Below are positions 48,951 through 55,311 of a stretch of 64,000 nt of DNA, one piece after another. Source of the stretch: Fidelibacterota bacterium (GTDB lineage: Bacteria; Pseudomonadota; Alphaproteobacteria; Rhodospirillales; Rhodospirillaceae). The stretch covers positions 1 to 64,000 of the forward strand of contig CANJPQ010000011.1 in the NCBI GenBank assembly GCA_947476275.1. Reading direction: 5' to 3'. A model generated the notes under the pieces. It had not been told where the DNA came from. It saw only the letters and a program-made list of their open reading frames with translations, and made no database searches. Position 1 is the first letter of the stretch. Each line of letters opens with the position of its first letter. The translations under genes were made by a program, and so were the position numbers.

Positions 48951-49673
48951 ATGGACGCGTTACTTAATCCCGACATCTTGGCGGCGTTCTTTACGCTTAC
49001 CGCGCTCGAGATCGTGCTCGGCATCGACAACGTTATCTTCCTGTCGATTGTCGCCAATCGCGTGCCACCCGAAAGTCGCGCCAAAGTCCGCCGTATCGGG
49101 CTGGCGCTCGCGCTAATCCTGCGGCTGGCGTTGTTGGGCAGCATCAGCTGGCTCGCCGGCCTGACCACCCCGATCACCACGATCGCCGGATTTGAACTCA
49201 GCTGGCGCGACATCGTGCTGGGCGGCGGCGGCCTGTTCTTGATCTACAAGGGCACGTCGGAGATCCACAATATGATGGAAGGCGGCGGCCATGGCGAAAG
49301 CGGCGGCGTCCAGTTGACGGTCGCCAGCGCGATCTTTCAGGTCGTGCTGCTCGACGTGGTGTTCTCGCTGGACTCCGTCATCACCGCCGTGGGCATGACC
49401 GACAATTTGCCGGTGATGATTGGCGCGATCATCGTCGCCATCATCATCATGATGGTCGCCGCCGGGCCGATTGGCGATTTTGTTAACCGTCATCCCACTG
49501 TGAAGATGCTGGCGCTGGGATTTCTGCTGTTGGTTGGCGCCGCACTTATGGCTGACGCTGGTCACTTCCATATCCCACGCGGGTACATCTACTCGGCGAT
49601 TGTCTTCTCCGGCCTGATCGAGACCCTGAACTTGATCATGCGCCGAAAGACCCCACCGGGCGGCCACGCGTGA
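48951..49673 (+). CDS. TerC family integral membrane protein, copy 1
   Basis: A protein of 240 residues with seven helices and TerC motifs LEIVLGIDNVIFL near 20 and VVFSLDSVITAVGM near 140. The acidic residues in these helices are thought to bind metal; related TerC proteins act in manganese efflux or metallation of exported proteins. Its TGA overlaps the GTG of copy 2 (GTGA). Confidence 0.9.
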   Translation: MDALLNPDILAAFFTLTALEIVLGIDNVIFLSIVANRVPPESRAKVRRIGLALALILRLALLGSISWLAGLTTPITTIAGFELSWRDIVLGGGGLFLIYKGTSEIHNMMEGGGHGESGGVQLTVASAIFQVVLLDVVFSLDSVITAVGMTDNLPVMIGAIIVAIIIMMVAAGPIGDFVNRHPTVKMLALGFLLLVGAALMADAGHFHIPRGYIYSAIVFSGLIETLNLIMRRKTPPGGHA

Positions 49674-50398
49674 TTGCGTTCATCACCAATCCCGACACGT
49701 GGTTGGCGCTGCTAACCCTGACGGTGCTCGAGATCGTTCTCGGCATCGACAACCTTGTGTTTCTCGCGATCACGTCCTCGCGGCTGCCGCCAGCGCAGCA
49801 GCCGCTGGCGCGGAAGATCGGATTGCTGCTCGCGCTCGGCCTTCGCGTCGGTCTCCTCGCGACCCTGACCGTCATCGCCAAGCTGACCACGCCCATCATG
49901 ACCGTCGGTGATTTCGCACTGTCCTGGCGCGACATCGTGCTCGGGGTCGGTGGGATTTATCTCATCTACAAGGGTGCGGACGAGATCCACGAGACCATCG
50001 AAGGCCCCGCCGAGAAAGAAGGCGGCCGGGCCCCCGCCAAGCTGCTTCCGGTGATCCTGCAGATCATGGCGCTCGATTTGGTGTTCTCGCTGGATTCCAT
50101 CATCACCGCTGTCGGCATGACCGACAATCTGCCGGTAATGATCATCGCCATCGTCATCGCCATCTTGGTGATGATCTTCTGCGCCGGGGCAGTGTCAGGT
50201 TTCATCGAGCGCCACCAAACCGTGAAGATGCTGGCGCTCGCCTTCCTGCTGCTGGTGGGCACGGCCTTGGTTGCGGATGCCGCGCACTTCCACATTCCGC
50301 GCGGATATCTCTACTTCGCGATCTGCTTCTCGATCATGGTGGAAAGCTTGAATATCTGGGCGCACCGCAACTCGCAGAAGCGCACGAAAAGCGGATAG
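49670..50398 (+). CDS. TerC family integral membrane protein, copy 2
   Basis: A protein of 242 residues, close to copy 1 throughout (LEIVLGIDNLVFLAI, LVFSLDSIITAVGMTDNLPVMI), with the same seven-helix plan. It starts with GTG inside the stop of copy 1, so the two are translationally coupled and probably form a heteromer. Its stop abuts the stop of the opposite-strand SDR gene. Confidence 0.9.
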   Translation: MIAFITNPDTWLALLTLTVLEIVLGIDNLVFLAITSSRLPPAQQPLARKIGLLLALGLRVGLLATLTVIAKLTTPIMTVGDFALSWRDIVLGVGGIYLIYKGADEIHETIEGPAEKEGGRAPAKLLPVILQIMALDLVFSLDSIITAVGMTDNLPVMIIAIVIAILVMIFCAGAVSGFIERHQTVKMLALAFLLLVGTALVADAAHFHIPRGYLYFAICFSIMVESLNIWAHRNSQKRTKSG

Positions 50399-51166
50399 CT
50401 ACTCCTTGGCCGGCAAACGCCCCGTCAATGCCTCGGCGATGCGGTCCGGCAACGCCGCAATCACCCACATCACGAACATCATCGGCCAAGGGAACGCGAT
50501 GCGGCCGCGGTTCGCCGCAAGGCCCGCCTGGACGATTCGTGCTGCCCGCGACGTGTCCATCAGGAACGGCATCGGAAAGCGGTTTACGGCCGTCATGCGG
50601 CTGACGACGAAGCCCGGGCAGATCACCGACAGCCCTATGCCGTCCTGCGCCAGCATCGGCCGCACGCCTTCGCCCCACACCCGCACTGCCGCCTTTGAGG
50701 CGCTGTAGGCAGGCGCCCCGCCGATGCCGCGAAAGCTCGCCAGCGAACTCATTAGCGCGATCTGGCCCCGGCGACGTGCGCGCATGCGCGGGATCGCCGG
50801 CAACACCGTATTCAGCACGCCGCCCAGGTTCACATCGAAGATGTGACGGCCCCGGCTCGCCGCCGTGCCGCCTTCGATACCGGATGTGCCGCCGGAAATG
50901 CCGGCATTGGCGATGACCAGATCGAGTGGGGCGGCATCATCCCGCGCCAGGATCCAGCGCTCCATTGCGGCCTGATCCGTCACGTCCATCACACATGCAT
51001 CGACGGTGGCACCTTTGTCGCGGCAGGCTTGCGCGACCCCTTCGAGGCGCGGCGCATCGCGCCCGCTCAGGCTCAGAACGGCGCCAGGGGCGGCATAGAT
51101 ATGCGCGAGGGCTTCGCCGATCCCGGAGGAGGCGCCGGTGATCAGGACATGAAAAGGGGCCGTCAT
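50399..51166 (-). CDS. SDR family oxidoreductase
   Basis: A protein of 255 residues: TGASSGIG near 10, Ser in MSSLASF and Tyr-Lys in YSASKAA; a hydrophobic C-terminal end (FPWPMMFVMWVIAAL) suggests membrane association. The ATG at 51166 sits in a hairpin (see 51152-51188), with a GGATAG ribosome site in its loop. It follows kaiB on the same strand by 49 bases. The substrate is unknown. Confidence 0.9.
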   Translation of the reverse strand: MTAPFHVLITGASSGIGEALAHIYAAPGAVLSLSGRDAPRLEGVAQACRDKGATVDACVMDVTDQAAMERWILARDDAAPLDLVIANAGISGGTSGIEGGTAASRGRHIFDVNLGGVLNTVLPAIPRMRARRRGQIALMSSLASFRGIGGAPAYSASKAAVRVWGEGVRPMLAQDGIGLSVICPGFVVSRMTAVNRFPMPFLMDTSRAARIVQAGLAANRGRIAFPWPMMFVMWVIAALPDRIAEALTGRLPAKE

Positions 51167-51215: not shown

Positions 51216-51521
51216 CTAAGCGGTTGCTGCCAGTGTCACAGACTTGGTGTCGAGTTTGAGGGCGCCGATGACCTTGTCGGTCGCGCTGAAATCTCCGAAC
51301 ACACGCGGCTGCACCCCTGGGCCCAGCCGCAGCAGGGTCGGCGTGGCGAAGATCTTGTCCCGTTCCGCCGCTTCCGGGTCGTCGAGCACGTCGATCACTT
51401 CGCAGTGGATCGTGCTCTCACCGGTGGTATGCGCGAGCCGGCGCTCCAGGTCGCGCAGCGCCAGGCGGGCGCGCTCGGCGCTCACCGTGCGTCCGGTCAC
51501 GTACAGCCGCAGCCGGATCAT
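51216..51521 (-). CDS. KaiB-like protein
   Basis: A protein of 101 residues with the KaiB pattern: IRLRLYVTGRTVSAERARLAL (N-terminal beta-alpha), EVIDVLDDPEAAERDKIFATPTLLR (family core) and a C-terminal GDFSATDKVIGAL. KaiB is a thioredoxin-like fold-switching partner of KaiC; bacterial homologues occur in stress and redox signalling. The start codon overlaps the response-regulator stop by 4 bases. No kaiC or kaiA is in the window. Confidence 0.88.
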   Translation of the reverse strand: MIRLRLYVTGRTVSAERARLALRDLERRLAHTTGESTIHCEVIDVLDDPEAAERDKIFATPTLLRLGPGVQPRVFGDFSATDKVIGALKLDTKSVTLAATA

Positions 51522-51943
51522 GAGTGCACCGACGGGACGGTCGTCCATCCGTCGCCGCCGACGGGAAGCGGGCCCACCATGCCGATGCGTCCCGCCGCAA
51601 TCGCCTTGATCTCGGTTGCGGTCAGCGGTTTGCGCGCGAGGTTGAAGTCCACGCCGCGGCTCTGGAGCTCCCGCAACGGTGCGATGAACTCGCCGTAGAA
51701 GCCGGTCACGACGTACACCGGCGTGCGCGGGCAGGTGTCCTGAAGTTGCTTGAGGGTATCGACACCGGACAGGCCCGGCATCTTGAGGTCGAGGAACACC
51801 AGATCGGGGCGCTCCGCCTGGGCCGACTCGATGCCGGAGACGCCGTTCTCGGCGGTGCTCACCTGATAGCCCGCGTCCTCAAGCGCCGCGCGGAAAGATT
51901 CGCGCACGCCCCCATCGTCATCGATCACCAACACCCTCTTCAT
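51518..51943 (-). CDS. Response regulator (single receiver domain)
   Basis: A protein of 141 residues: a receiver domain with DDD in VLVIDDDGGVRES, phospho-acceptor Asp in LVFLDLKMPG and Lys in LARKPLTATE; a tail of about 20 residues has no known output domain. AAGGAAA precedes the ATG. Its TGA overlaps the kaiB-like start (ATGA). No kinase is adjacent. It is divergent from the PAS-GGDEF-EAL gene. Confidence 0.9.
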   Translation of the reverse strand: MKRVLVIDDDGGVRESFRAALEDAGYQVSTAENGVSGIESAQAERPDLVFLDLKMPGLSGVDTLKQLQDTCPRTPVYVVTGFYGEFIAPLRELQSRGVDFNLARKPLTATEIKAIAAGRIGMVGPLPVGGDGWTTVPSVHS

Positions 51944-52104
51944 CGCAAGTTTCCTTTTGCACGTAAGGTGTTAACTCGCCCGTCGGGAGCCTGGCCGAGG
52001 GCCGAAATCCGGATCTAGTCAGCGACGTGGATCACCGCATTCACCGAATCTTCGCCCTCGGTCTGGCCACGGCTTGCCGATGCTCGCCGCGCCTCCTAGT
52101 ATAG

Positions 52105-52133
52105 TTTCGAGTTCAAATAATATCTACTCGAAA
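52105..52133. promoter_or_regulatory. Inverted repeat and AT-rich promoter region before the GGDEF-EAL gene
   Basis: TTTCGAGT (52105-52112) and ACTCGAAA (52126-52133), 8 of 8, with a 13-base spacer containing AAATAATAT, which could be a -10 box. It lies 30 bases before the ATG at 52163 and within the divergent region shared with the response regulator. Candidate operator. Confidence 0.5.
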
Positions 52134-52162
52134 TTGTGCCTACAGAAGTGGGGGATCAGGGG

Positions 52163-54295
52163 ATGGATCACGCGACGTCAGGTTCGGGGGCCGGACAGTC
52201 AGGGGCCAGCGCGGTGCCCGATGCGCCGCTTACTGCGCCGCCCGCGCCGCACATCGCCCAGGCGTTAAATCGCCCGAAGTCCCGCGTGCGCGTGCGCACA
52301 GGGACGCGTACCGCACAGCAGGAGGTCTATCAGCGCGTCGTGGACCACGCCCGCGATGCCTTCCTGATCGTCGACGACACCGGCGTCATCGTGTTCTGCA
52401 ATCCCGCCGCCACCCGCCTGTTCAGCATGGCGGCGGAGGATCTGCTGGGCCGAAACTTCGGGTTCTCCTTCGGTCCTGACGGCGAGCCGACGCCGATCGA
52501 ACTCCTGAGCGGCGTCCTCTCTCCGTTGTTCGTCGAGATGGTGGCGACGCCCTTAACTTGGGAAGGGCGTGCGGCAAGCTTGGTGTCGCTCACCGATATC
52601 ACCGCGCGGCGCGCGCGAGAGACCGAAATGATGATCCACACCACGGCGATGGAAACCGCCGCCAACGGCATCTTCATCACGGACCGCGGCGGGCTCATCA
52701 AATGGGTCAACAAGGCGTTCGAGGACCTCACCGGGTATGCCCGCGCATTGTTGATCGGCATGAGCGCCGATCAGCTCAAGTCCGGCCGCGAAAGCGATGC
52801 AGTCTTCGCCGACATGAACGCGCGGCTGAGCGCCGGGCAGAATTGGAAGGGGCGCATCGTCTGCCGCCGAAAGAACGGCGACGTCTATACCGCCGAACAG
52901 ACCTCGACGCCGATTCCAGATCCCACGGGCCGCTTCTCGCACTTCGTCTCGGTGCAGGAGGACATCTCCGAGCGCCTGCGCGCACAGGATCAGCTTATTC
53001 AGTTGTCGGAGTACGACGGCCTCACCGGCCTGCCGAACCGCCATCAGTTCATGGAGCGCCTGAAGTCCGCCATCGAACGCGCCAACCGCGCCGATAGCGC
53101 TGTGGCCGTGATGGTGATGGACCTCGACAACTTCAAGGCCATCAACAACACCCTGGGGCACAAGGCCGGGGACACGCTGATTCGGGCGATCTCCGCGCGC
53201 ATCGCCAAGCTGATGCGCACGACCGATACGCTGGCCCGCATCGGCGGCGACGACTTCGGCTTCATCTTCGAGAATGTCAGCGACATGGCCGGCGCGAGCC
53301 GCACGATGCGCCGCATTCTTGACTGCCTTAGGCAGCCGGTGATCGTGGAAGGCCGACACCTGAAGGTGGCGGCTTCGCTCGGCATCGCTGCCTATCCCAA
53401 GGACGACATCGATCCCTTGTCGCTCCTCCGCCAGGCGGAACTCGCCATGTACCAGGCCAAGGCGCAAGGAGGCCAGTCCTTCAAGTACTTCGACAAGGAC
53501 ATGGACGCGGACATCCGCCGCCGTGTGCAGCTTGAATCGGATCTGCGCCGCGCCATCGAGAACGGCGAACTCTGGCTCGCTTTCCAGCCGCAGCTGGACC
53601 TGCGCCGCCGACGCATCGTCGGCGCGGAAGCCTTGATCCGCTGGAACCATCCCACCCGCGGTCTGGTGTCGCCGGGCGAATTCATTCCCTGCGCCGAAGC
53701 CTCGGGCCTCATCCTACCGATCGGCGACTGGATCATCGAAGAGATCTGCCGCCGCAGCGTCGCATTCGCCGAAAAAGGCCTGCGCGACGTGCAGCTCGGG
53801 TTCAACGTCTCCGGCGTGCAGTTCCGCCAGCGCGATCTTTACAGCCAGGTGACAAGCTCCTTGAACCGCACCGGCCTCGGCGTCGAAGCCCTCGACCTGG
53901 AGATCACCGAAACCGTGGCCATGGAACGCACCAAGCAGGTGACGGAGAACGTGGAAAAGATCACCGCGGCCGGCATCTCCATCTCCATGGACGATTTCGG
54001 CACCGGTTACTCGTCGCTGTCGAATCTCCAGGCATTCCCGGTGAAGCGGCTGAAAGTAGACGCCTCCTTTGTGCGCGGCATCGGCCAGAACCGCGACGAT
54101 GAGAAGATCGTCGAAGCGGTGGTCCGGCTCGGCCAAAGCCTGGGGCTGCGGGTGGTGGCGGAGGGCGTCGAGACCACCGCGCAGAAGGAATTCCTGCACG
54201 AGCGCGGCTGCGACGAAATCCAAGGTTATCTGTTGGCGAAACCAATGCCGCCGGAGCAATTCGTCACGTTTGTGTCCGACTTCCAGGACAGCTGA
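52163..54295 (+). CDS. PAS-PAS-GGDEF-EAL cyclic-di-GMP enzyme
   Basis: A cytoplasmic protein of 710 residues. Two PAS domains lie at about 50-155 and 160-275 (ITDRGGLIKWVNKAFEDLTGY; a PAC-like end KNGDVYTAEQTSTPI). The GGDEF domain (about 285-445) has RIGGDDFGF, so the fourth signature residue is Asp, not Glu. The EAL domain (about 460-705) has GAEALIRW, FNVSG, LEITET, MDDFGTG, LKVD and AEGVET, the full catalytic set. It probably breaks down c-di-GMP, with uncertain synthase activity. The ATG at 52163 follows GGGGGATC; GTG at 52136 is possible. Confidence 0.92.
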   Translation: MDHATSGSGAGQSGASAVPDAPLTAPPAPHIAQALNRPKSRVRVRTGTRTAQQEVYQRVVDHARDAFLIVDDTGVIVFCNPAATRLFSMAAEDLLGRNFGFSFGPDGEPTPIELLSGVLSPLFVEMVATPLTWEGRAASLVSLTDITARRARETEMMIHTTAMETAANGIFITDRGGLIKWVNKAFEDLTGYARALLIGMSADQLKSGRESDAVFADMNARLSAGQNWKGRIVCRRKNGDVYTAEQTSTPIPDPTGRFSHFVSVQEDISERLRAQDQLIQLSEYDGLTGLPNRHQFMERLKSAIERANRADSAVAVMVMDLDNFKAINNTLGHKAGDTLIRAISARIAKLMRTTDTLARIGGDDFGFIFENVSDMAGASRTMRRILDCLRQPVIVEGRHLKVAASLGIAAYPKDDIDPLSLLRQAELAMYQAKAQGGQSFKYFDKDMDADIRRRVQLESDLRRAIENGELWLAFQPQLDLRRRRIVGAEALIRWNHPTRGLVSPGEFIPCAEASGLILPIGDWIIEEICRRSVAFAEKGLRDVQLGFNVSGVQFRQRDLYSQVTSSLNRTGLGVEALDLEITETVAMERTKQVTENVEKITAAGISISMDDFGTGYSSLSNLQAFPVKRLKVDASFVRGIGQNRDDEKIVEAVVRLGQSLGLRVVAEGVETTAQKEFLHERGCDEIQGYLLAKPMPPEQFVTFVSDFQDS

Positions 54296-54378: not shown

Positions 54379-55311
54379 ATGGCGTCGGTCACAAGCATGA
54401 CGGGCTACGCGCGCGCCGAAGGGCGTTGCGAGCTGCCCGGGCTGCCCGCCCCTTTCGGTTGGATCTGGGAAGCCAAGAGCGTCAACGGCAAGGGCCTGGA
54501 CGTGCGCGTGCGTTTGCCCGCGGGGTTCGATTCGCTCGAACTGCCGACACGCCAGGCCGCCACCGCAGGCCTCGGCCGCGGCTCGCTTTCCATCAGTCTT
54601 CATATCTCCACCGACACCGCTGTGGGGACCTTGCGGATCAATGAGCCGCTTTTGGATGCCGCCATCGCCCTGGCGGTCAAGAAAGCCGCAGAGCTACCCG
54701 CCGGCGTCCTCGGCAAGACCATCGCGCCGGCGTCGATCGACGGCCTGCTGTCCTTGCGCGGTATCCTTGATGCGCCGGACTCGGGGCCCCTTCCCACCGA
54801 GGTCATGGCGGCGCGCGATCAAGCCCTTCTCAAGGGCCTCGCGACTGCGCTGACGCAGTTGAGCCTCTCGCGCCGTGAAGAGGGCGCGCGCCTGGCACCG
54901 GTGATGGTCGGCCATCTCGACGACATCGCCCGCTTCAGCGCGGAAGCGCGTACCGTCGCGGCCACGCAGCCCGCCATGTTGAAGGCCCGGCTGACGCAGC
55001 AAGTGAAGGAACTGGCGGACGCCGCGCCCGCGCTCACGCCGGAACGCCTTGCACAGGAAGTCGCCTTGCTCGCCCTCAAGGCCGACGTGCGGGAGGAACT
55101 GGATCGCCTGAGTGCCCACGTCGCCCAGGCGCGCGAACTGCTCGACAAGGGCGAGCCCTGCGGACGCCGGCTCGATTTCCTGTCCCAGGAATTCAATCGC
55201 GAAGCCAACACCCTTTGTTCCAAGTCCACCGACGTCACGCTCACGCGCATCGGTCTCGGCCTGAAGACCGCGATCGACCAGTTCCGTGAGCAGATACAGA
55301 ATATCGAATAG
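54379..55311 (+). CDS. yicC: YicC family endoribonuclease
   Basis: A protein of 310 residues with YicC_N (SMTGYARAEG; GKGLDVRVRLP) and the C-terminal DUF1732 region (KGEPCGRRLDFLSQEFNREANTL). The family has been linked to RNA decay. Seven bases before gmk, the usual order. Confidence 0.93.
   Translation: MASVTSMTGYARAEGRCELPGLPAPFGWIWEAKSVNGKGLDVRVRLPAGFDSLELPTRQAATAGLGRGSLSISLHISTDTAVGTLRINEPLLDAAIALAVKKAAELPAGVLGKTIAPASIDGLLSLRGILDAPDSGPLPTEVMAARDQALLKGLATALTQLSLSRREEGARLAPVMVGHLDDIARFSAEARTVAATQPAMLKARLTQQVKELADAAPALTPERLAQEVALLALKADVREELDRLSAHVAQARELLDKGEPCGRRLDFLSQEFNREANTLCSKSTDVTLTRIGLGLKTAIDQFREQIQNIE

Follow-up and report, generated by a model that had tools for sequence, protein, structure and literature searches.

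KaiB has been studied mostly as a clock component and as a fold-switching protein, and its other bacterial roles are described as not fully understood in the accessible part of one study (PMC10808063). The closest described loci are the kaiC-kaiB-PAS/histidine-kinase operons of Rhodopseudomonas palustris and Rhodobacter sphaeroides (PMC4794148, 2016) and the KaiBC clusters with receiver, histidine kinase or GGDEF/EAL neighbours noted in the Ramlibacter genome paper (PMC3164672, 2011), as far as the available excerpts of both papers describe them. Here we analyze a window of 64,000 nucleotides (contig CANJPQ010000011.1, positions 1 to 64,000) in which a KaiB-family protein is co-translated with a receiver-only response regulator (RR) and faces a divergently encoded PAS-PAS-GGDEF-EAL enzyme; these three genes are called the module below. 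The module resembles the R. palustris and R. sphaeroides operons, as excerpted, in that a KaiB-family protein adjoins a PAS-bearing signalling enzyme, but it lacks KaiC, its output is a GGDEF-EAL enzyme instead of a kinase, and its RR is co-translated with KaiB. The PAS subtype of the window enzyme, termed PAS1, occurs in PAS-kinases beside kaiB or kaiC in eight genomes of the window's family. The Ramlibacter clusters likewise have receiver or GGDEF/EAL genes beside kai genes; those loci are defined by KaiC, and neither a KaiC-free RR-KaiB unit nor a receiver::KaiB fusion was found in the available part of that paper (PMC3164672). KaiBC loci beside GGDEF/EAL genes are thus already known, and the open-licence PMC literature, as far as its text was accessible, yielded no KaiC-free, receiver-fused form; the same holds for a KaiB-associated PAS subtype.

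In SasA a KaiB-like domain is joined to a histidine kinase, whereas the window KaiB is co-translated with a receiver and its relatives elsewhere are fused to one. The nearest solved structure to the window KaiB, that of Legionella pneumophila Lpp1115, comes from a protein that is presumably part of a kai operon with KaiC, unlike the window KaiB. Lpp1115 crystallised in the switched fold (4kun) and is tied to stress, not to rhythm, according to the available text of PMC10808063. SasA and the window protein are alike in placing a thioredoxin-like, KaiB-like fold within two-component signalling (PDB 6x61, 1t4y), and the SasA domain binds KaiC, as stated in the title of entry 6x61. A precedent for direct contact between a receiver fold and a KaiB fold is CikA, whose pseudo-receiver binds KaiB (PMC12632262, in excerpt); that pseudo-receiver is part of a hybrid kinase in the KaiABC clock, whereas the module lacks KaiC and its receiver keeps the phosphorylation residues. 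Effects of cyclic di-GMP (c-di-GMP) on the cyanobacterial clock link Kai rhythm and c-di-GMP, as reported in the accessible part of PMC13001216.

The three genes are real and lie as an earlier first-pass annotation of the sequence had placed them, with the RR and KaiB genes overlapping by ATGA and facing the enzyme gene, and the palindrome that it reported between the divergent genes was confirmed as an 8-bp inverted repeat that is also conserved in relatives. The module comprises the following features.

51216..51521, minus strand: KaiB-family protein, 101 amino acids (PF07689, 53 bits, cut-off at 27 bits; 22-row ortholog alignment; AlphaFold2 model)
51518..51943, minus strand: receiver-only RR, 141 amino acids (PF00072 as sole domain)
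51518..51521, minus strand: ATGA stop/start overlap of RR and KaiB (sequence)
52104..52133, no strand: putative operator, a conserved dyad GTTTCGA-N15-ACTCGAAA (alignment of intergenic regions; inverted repeat at 52105-52133)
52136..54295, plus strand: PAS-PAS-GGDEF-EAL enzyme (Pfam; orthologs in the same 22 genomes)
52325..52615, plus strand: PAS1, the KaiB-associated PAS subtype (profile A3)
52643..52996, plus strand: second PAS domain, approximate limits (Pfam)
53009..53473, plus strand: GGDEF domain with an altered site, GGDDF, at 53243-53257 (Pfam)
53540..54244, plus strand: EAL domain with intact catalytic motifs (Pfam, 237 bits)

The KaiB gene starts at the ATG within ATGA (51521-51518); an alternative longer frame from 51548 extends further into the RR gene. 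For the enzyme, the GTG at 52136 lies 2 bases past the dyad, and the ATG at 52163, with a GGGGGA-like site ahead of it, looks likelier by eye. The window KaiB falls far under the cut-off of the clock-KaiB equivalog TIGR02654 (47.4 against 145.3 bits), and by Pfam it is a separate protein, not a SasA-type kinase fusion.

We consider it somewhat probable that the locus is a KaiC-free two-component module in which KaiB serves as the output of the receiver and acts on a PAS1-gated c-di-GMP phosphodiesterase. A histidine kinase, encoded outside the window locus and adjacent in homologous modules, would phosphorylate D52 of the RR, and the phosphorylation state would alter the hold of the RR on its co-translated KaiB, in the thioredoxin-like fold, so that KaiB would be the output arm of the RR. 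Free or RR-bound KaiB would then dock on PAS1 of the divergent enzyme and set its activity, chiefly that of the EAL phosphodiesterase, and through it local or global c-di-GMP. In this chain, from kinase to receiver to KaiB to PAS1 to a c-di-GMP phosphodiesterase, the receiver would fill the place of KaiC in KaiBC-PAS-kinase loci and the enzyme that of the PAS-kinase. Each arrow, from phosphorylation through RR-KaiB and KaiB-PAS1 binding and the fold of KaiB to the effect on c-di-GMP and its sign, is a predicted step. The observations beneath the proposal are well supported: the gene set, an intact receiver, no KaiC found, co-inheritance, fusion of the parts elsewhere, linkage of PAS1 to KaiB, and a putative operator specific to the module.

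No KaiC was found genome-wide in an assembly rated 100% complete (77 contigs). PF06745 gave two matches only, RadA (window 32.6 kb) and RecA (end of contig 33), both identified by eye, and the KaiC profile TIGR02655 gave a single match at the RadA site (19.8 bits). A KaiC concealed at a contig end was considered and rejected, as the 205-residue open frame that ends contig 33 is RecA by eye. PF07689 detects one KaiB in the whole genome. Profile search therefore did not turn up the kaiC elsewhere in the genome that the first-pass annotation had named as refuting its proposal.

We then surveyed 73 genomes of the same GTDB family, counting as KaiB any protein over the PF07689 cut-off. KaiB was present in 37 genomes, with 14 clock-like cases, one scar (G006) and 22 RR-KaiB pairs. 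All 14 clock-like genomes have KaiC, close by on the same contig in 13 and on another contig in G022, while profile search found KaiC missing from 20 of the 22 module genomes. The premise that known KaiB-type loci have KaiC was thus too strong. The RR profile (A1) separates 22 of 73 genomes at 200 bits or more from a next match of 78 bits, and the PAS1 profile (A3; 20 rows, enzyme PAS1 only, up to 69 scored PAS candidates per family genome, E ≤ 1e-8) separates 22 at 130 bits or more from a next match of 72 bits. The RR, KaiB and PAS1-enzyme sets are identical, consisting of the same 22 genomes. All 22 RR/KaiB pairs are co-stranded and at most 60 bases apart, nine of them with the same 4-base overlap. 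In 21 genomes one contig carries enzyme and RR as neighbours, with the enzyme truncated at the contig edge in G050, G062 and G064; the exception is G044, whose contig starts with the RR while the enzyme sits next to yicC on a different one. Most loci with sufficient contig keep the order yicC - enzyme - RR - KaiB - (short-chain dehydrogenase, SDR) - terC - mltG - fabF. RR, KaiB and enzyme are inherited as one unit. Separately, G057 (C23) and G052 (C199; loci L082 and L005) carry tandem kaiB-kaiB with kaiC in addition to the KaiC-free module, so that both systems can coexist.

Where the module is lost, it is lost as a whole. In the DNA upstream of yicC in 20 module-less genomes, searched with all ortholog sequences, ten genomes of genus g19 (G043, G045, G048, G049, G051, G053, G055, G058, G059 and G060) have an empty terC-(SDR)-yicC site, with one chance-level KaiB match (27 bits) at the far end of the G053 stretch. 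No traces of the module were seen upstream of yicC in G067 and G018, the G061 stretch stops at a contig edge, and yicC has different surroundings in G040, G072, G013 and G030, the last with one chance-level match (28 bits). Three genomes hold scars: in G006 the enzyme C-terminus is joined to the KaiB C-terminus, G068 retains RR residues 71-127 and KaiB residues 2-37, and G069 retains the enzyme C-terminus. The breakpoints differ, which points to separate deletions that spared no whole gene of the three. These scars (L045, L176 and L177, respectively) are 83-88% identical to intact copies, or 56% for one KaiB end, and would be useful for dating the loss. The idea that the genes are paired through synteny alone was rejected, as the block order is kept in genomes lacking all three genes and the pairing recurs elsewhere. 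A weak PF07689 match in G021 (20.5 bits, under the cut-off) is by eye a thioredoxin-like stretch of a longer protein and was excluded from the KaiB counts. A search for a plasmid-borne relative, with the RR against a plasmid collection at 1e-20, gave no match.

The arrangement, whose conservation the first-pass annotation had made a test of its idea, also recurs in other proteobacteria with different gene contexts. An RR-alignment scan of named species genomes placed KaiB directly after or inside the receiver gene in at least 15 loci (15 among the best 80 of 460 relatives), all of them among the 16 top-ranked; the locus L094 is truncated where its contig stops. Five of the 15 (L083-L087) repeat the Rhodospirillaceae-type locus, L086 being the same locus as that of G052. 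In at least eight (L088-L093, L095 and L097) receiver and KaiB form a single protein of about 227-255 residues, in Methylomonas, Methylobacter, other Methylococcales or Methylococcaceae and one Comamonadaceae metagenome-assembled genome (MAG), and both Pfam domains exceeded their cut-offs in all three fusions tested (L088, L091 and L093). RR and KaiB are separate in L096, ahead of a MASE3-PAS-kinase-receiver protein, and in L098, a Legionellaceae MAG, a kinase, RR, KaiB and PAS-GGDEF-EAL protein are encoded consecutively. Pfam identified an upstream histidine kinase in the three loci tested (L088, L091 and L098); in L089, L090, L092, L095 and L097 the protein encoded upstream, at 1707-1752 codons, is similar to that of L088, L096 has a kinase by eye, and L093 has none on that strand. 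A GGDEF-EAL gene lies downstream in seven of the ten loci outside the Rhodospirillaceae-type clade (L088, L091 and L098 by Pfam; L093 by Pfam, contig-cut; L089, L090 and L092 by tblastn, 36-39%). The low-GC contigs L097 and L098 were read by open frames and profiles. Small STAS-like and SpoIIE-like genes (by eye) precede the row of genes in L098 (3309-8415) and hint at a partner-switch input.

The receiver::KaiB fusion argues that KaiB is an output domain of the RR. The first-pass annotation had suggested a KaiC-free phospho-relay with KaiB as its output, and both parts gain support, the output role from the fusions and the relay from the kinases beside homologous modules and from invariant receiver residues. 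Its further suggestion, that the signal would alter c-di-GMP turnover, is one that we infer, direction included, from gene linkage and co-loss.

The PAS1 subtype provides a second link to KaiB, one that the first-pass annotation did not mention, just as it did not mention the published KaiBC loci with GGDEF/EAL neighbours. Beyond the 22 orthologs, profile A3 matched eight near-full-length domains in the family. All eight belong to genes that Pfam identifies as PAS-histidine kinases, and kaiB or kaiC lies at a distance of 74-93 bases in each case. The profile also gave two partial matches of 48 positions, in G024 and G021, neither with a KaiB in its vicinity. Among nine genomes from outside the family, the best PAS1 match of the genome was the gene beside RR/KaiB in seven (identified by open-frame length); in G074 it was the gene that follows kaiC, the one adjoining receiver::KaiB ranking second, and a genome-wide search of G081 gave no match. 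G079 and G080 have two weak partial extra matches (31 and 35 bits) at other sites. Across 317 genomes of the order, scoring the best 16 candidates in each at E ≤ 1e-9, there were 15 further matches in 14 genomes of other families, nine of them 1.7-2.8 kb from KaiB, while 26 of 67 KaiB genomes of the order had no match. Given the KaiB-less matches and PAS1-less KaiB genomes, the link, though strong, is not exclusive. Its occurrence with both kinase and GGDEF-EAL outputs, in loci that have KaiC and in loci that lack it, suggests that PAS1 is the probable place where KaiB acts, which would make this PAS subtype a probable KaiB receptor. As the order-wide search covers the best 16 candidates per genome and the receiver scan the best 80 of 460 relatives, more loci exist. 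PAS1-subtype genes without nearby KaiB in G170, G180 and G154 (L195, L198-L200), some adjoining a receiver, may be orphaned outputs or reflect contig breaks.

The loci examined near kaiBC in family f8 have a PAS1 kinase and RR facing a KaiA3-like gene, kaiB and kaiC. The window module looks like this set minus KaiC, with a c-di-GMP enzyme in the place of the kinase, though either arrangement may have come first. In L189, L191, L193, L194, L196 and L197 of this family, kaiB-kaiC is preceded by a gene of about 287-316 codons whose product begins like a pseudo-receiver and which faces the RR and PAS1 kinase; it is a possible alphaproteobacterial KaiA3.

Orthologs in the 22 genomes are 51-71% (RR) and 38-63% (KaiB) identical to the window copies, with intact motifs. 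RR residues D8, D9, D52, T80 and K105 are invariant across the 22 orthologs, with no domain besides the receiver, and on this basis the RR should be phosphorylatable. In the enzyme, the EAL, DDFGTGYS and EGVET motifs are all present, and EAL[IL]R is kept in all 18 orthologs whose alignment reaches the site. The GGDEF site is canonical in 8 of 19 orthologs and altered in 11 (GGDDF in six, DGDEF in two, and GGGDF, SGDMF and GGDDY in one each), and the GGDDF of the window departs from the GG[DE]EF active site of diguanylate cyclases; the enzyme alignment held 20 of 22 orthologs, leaving out G044 (off contig) and G010 (missed by the filter). With EAL conserved but GGDEF variable, the net activity of the enzyme is probably c-di-GMP hydrolysis.

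The AlphaFold2 model of KaiB has a predicted local distance difference test score of 84.8 and the thioredoxin-like (fold-switched) topology; its best PDB match is Legionella KaiB, followed by fold-switch-stabilised KaiB and, lower, SasA (6x61 and 1t4y). A redox thioredoxin identity was rejected, as a CxxC pair occurs in none of the 61 KaiB rows compared. We take K58 of T. elongatus KaiB to be the KaiC-contact lysine and D91 to be the fold-switch aspartate. The K58 position is basic in 21 of 30 KaiC-linked rows and in 1 of 31 module rows, and the D91 position is acidic in 16 of 30 and 0 of 31, respectively, in a set of related rows in which one KaiC-linked gene was entered twice and the source genomes of three module rows also have KaiC at a separate site. 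In a KaiB tree of few columns and long branches, orphan KaiBs form one group (98/87) and fused KaiBs another (100/100), and the branch that parts both from the KaiC-linked KaiBs has weak support (85/48). The RR tree groups the orphan, fused and L096 receivers with four others (87/94), apart from RRs beside kaiBC; of these four, L098 has KaiB, L099 and L109 lack one in their vicinity, and L094 is truncated by the end of its contig.

In the 192-bp region between RR and enzyme, the inverted repeat (52105-52133) consists of two 8-bp arms separated by 13 bp. Its left half and spacing are recognisable in the 17 of 22 intergenic regions that were aligned, while some of them have a divergent right half. 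When at most one mismatch is allowed, the pattern occurs at exactly one place per genome in all 12 genomes searched, always in the RR-enzyme intergenic region; the 12 were chosen for a visible motif in the alignment, and two rows for G000 are one site on both strands. The reversed pattern, used as a control, matched at 7 places (5 in G070), which shows that sites arise by chance at this looseness. The single place per genome suggests that the module has its own operator, and the dyad seems to be a putative module-specific operator and not that of a regulon. A cognate kinase was sought through additional operator sites, and none was found outside the module in the 12 genomes.

Several observations weigh against the proposed chain. 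None of the 22 family loci showed a kinase gene next to RR-KaiB, with neighbours there called by similarity to window genes only. The variable GGDEF site makes the net activity of the enzyme uncertain, and c-di-GMP is not the sole output, since the downstream gene encodes a PAS-kinase-receiver protein in L095 and L096 and there is none in L097. The fold evidence for the window KaiB is weak because AlphaFold2 predicts the switched fold also where a KaiB is at rest in the unswitched one (PMC10808063, accessible part). The sole module row with lysine at the K58 position is the window's own KaiB, which also has lysine at the D91 position. KaiC is not always absent: G052 and G057 have a separate kaiC locus, and among nine of the ten genomes of loci outside the Rhodospirillaceae-type clade (all but that of L098; completeness not stated), G074, the genome of L089, has one elsewhere in the genome. 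Six of the 15 order-wide PAS1 matches have no KaiB nearby, two in G170 and one in G180 with KaiB on other contigs, and those in G154, G124 and G214 without KaiB. Finally, G011 (L179, 2639-5083) has a diverged PAS-GGDEF-EAL gene between SDR and yicC surroundings with RR and KaiB absent; it is 36-38% identical, has no PAS1-profile match, and is possibly a distant relative of the module enzyme.

Other explanations of the locus differ in where the signal would flow. The PAS-GGDEF-EAL protein could be the sensor, or KaiB a negative regulator that sequesters the RR, with the main RR output elsewhere on another kinase or a flagellar or transcription target. Single-domain RRs commonly act on distant targets, no kinase is seen in the locus, and two homologous loci have PAS-kinase hybrids instead of the enzyme, but the receiver::KaiB fusion gives KaiB the output position and the order at L088, L091 and L098 runs from kinase to RR/KaiB to enzyme; we regard such a flow as unlikely, though worth keeping in mind. 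The three genes could also be joined by their common operator alone, with no contact between KaiB and enzyme. That the divergent genes share one operator fits this account, which we nevertheless judge improbable, given that PAS1 accompanies KaiB with both kinase and GGDEF-EAL outputs in several proteobacterial classes and in other gene orders.

Two further accounts concern the missing KaiC. KaiB and RR might be remnants of a lost KaiC system with no or a generic function, the enzyme being merely a syntenic neighbour. In a second family of the order, KaiBC loci place RR, KaiB and PAS1 kinase side by side, so the module parts could descend from one; yet the conservation of RR and KaiB across 22 genomes at the identities given above with intact motifs, their joint loss where they are lost, the receiver::KaiB fusions, and the same pairing in gammaproteobacteria in unrelated gene contexts make a relic very hard to credit. 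Still slighter is the chance that KaiB binds RadA or another RecA-fold ATPase in place of KaiC: RadA and RecA are the sole PF06745 matches in the genome, but RadA is, to our knowledge, near-universal while the module is patchy, and 30 of 31 module rows, though not the window's own, no longer have a basic residue at the KaiC-contact position.

If KaiB is the output of the receiver as proposed, the module points to an additional role for KaiB, outside any clock, in ordinary bacterial signalling. A wider extension is more tentative and in our judgement falls short of an even chance: KaiB may be a general output domain of phosphorylatable receivers, signalling via a KaiB-binding PAS subtype to interchangeable phosphodiesterases or kinases, with clock KaiBC-PAS-kinase loci as one branch in which KaiC loads KaiB instead of a receiver. 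Receiver, KaiB and PAS-GGDEF-EAL protein form a small testable set with natural fused versions suited to biochemistry, and a probable PAS-subtype KaiB receptor would bear on how non-cyanobacterial KaiBC systems signal to their kinases.

The module is flanked on both sides by landmark genes, identified by Pfam and locus comparison.

50399..51166, minus strand: SDR, module flank
54379..55311, plus strand: yicC, opposite flank

The SDR is not counted in the module because genomes without the module still keep it. Beside the module, window positions 48951-50398 hold two TerC-like membrane protein genes in tandem (by eye), whose copy number differs among relatives.

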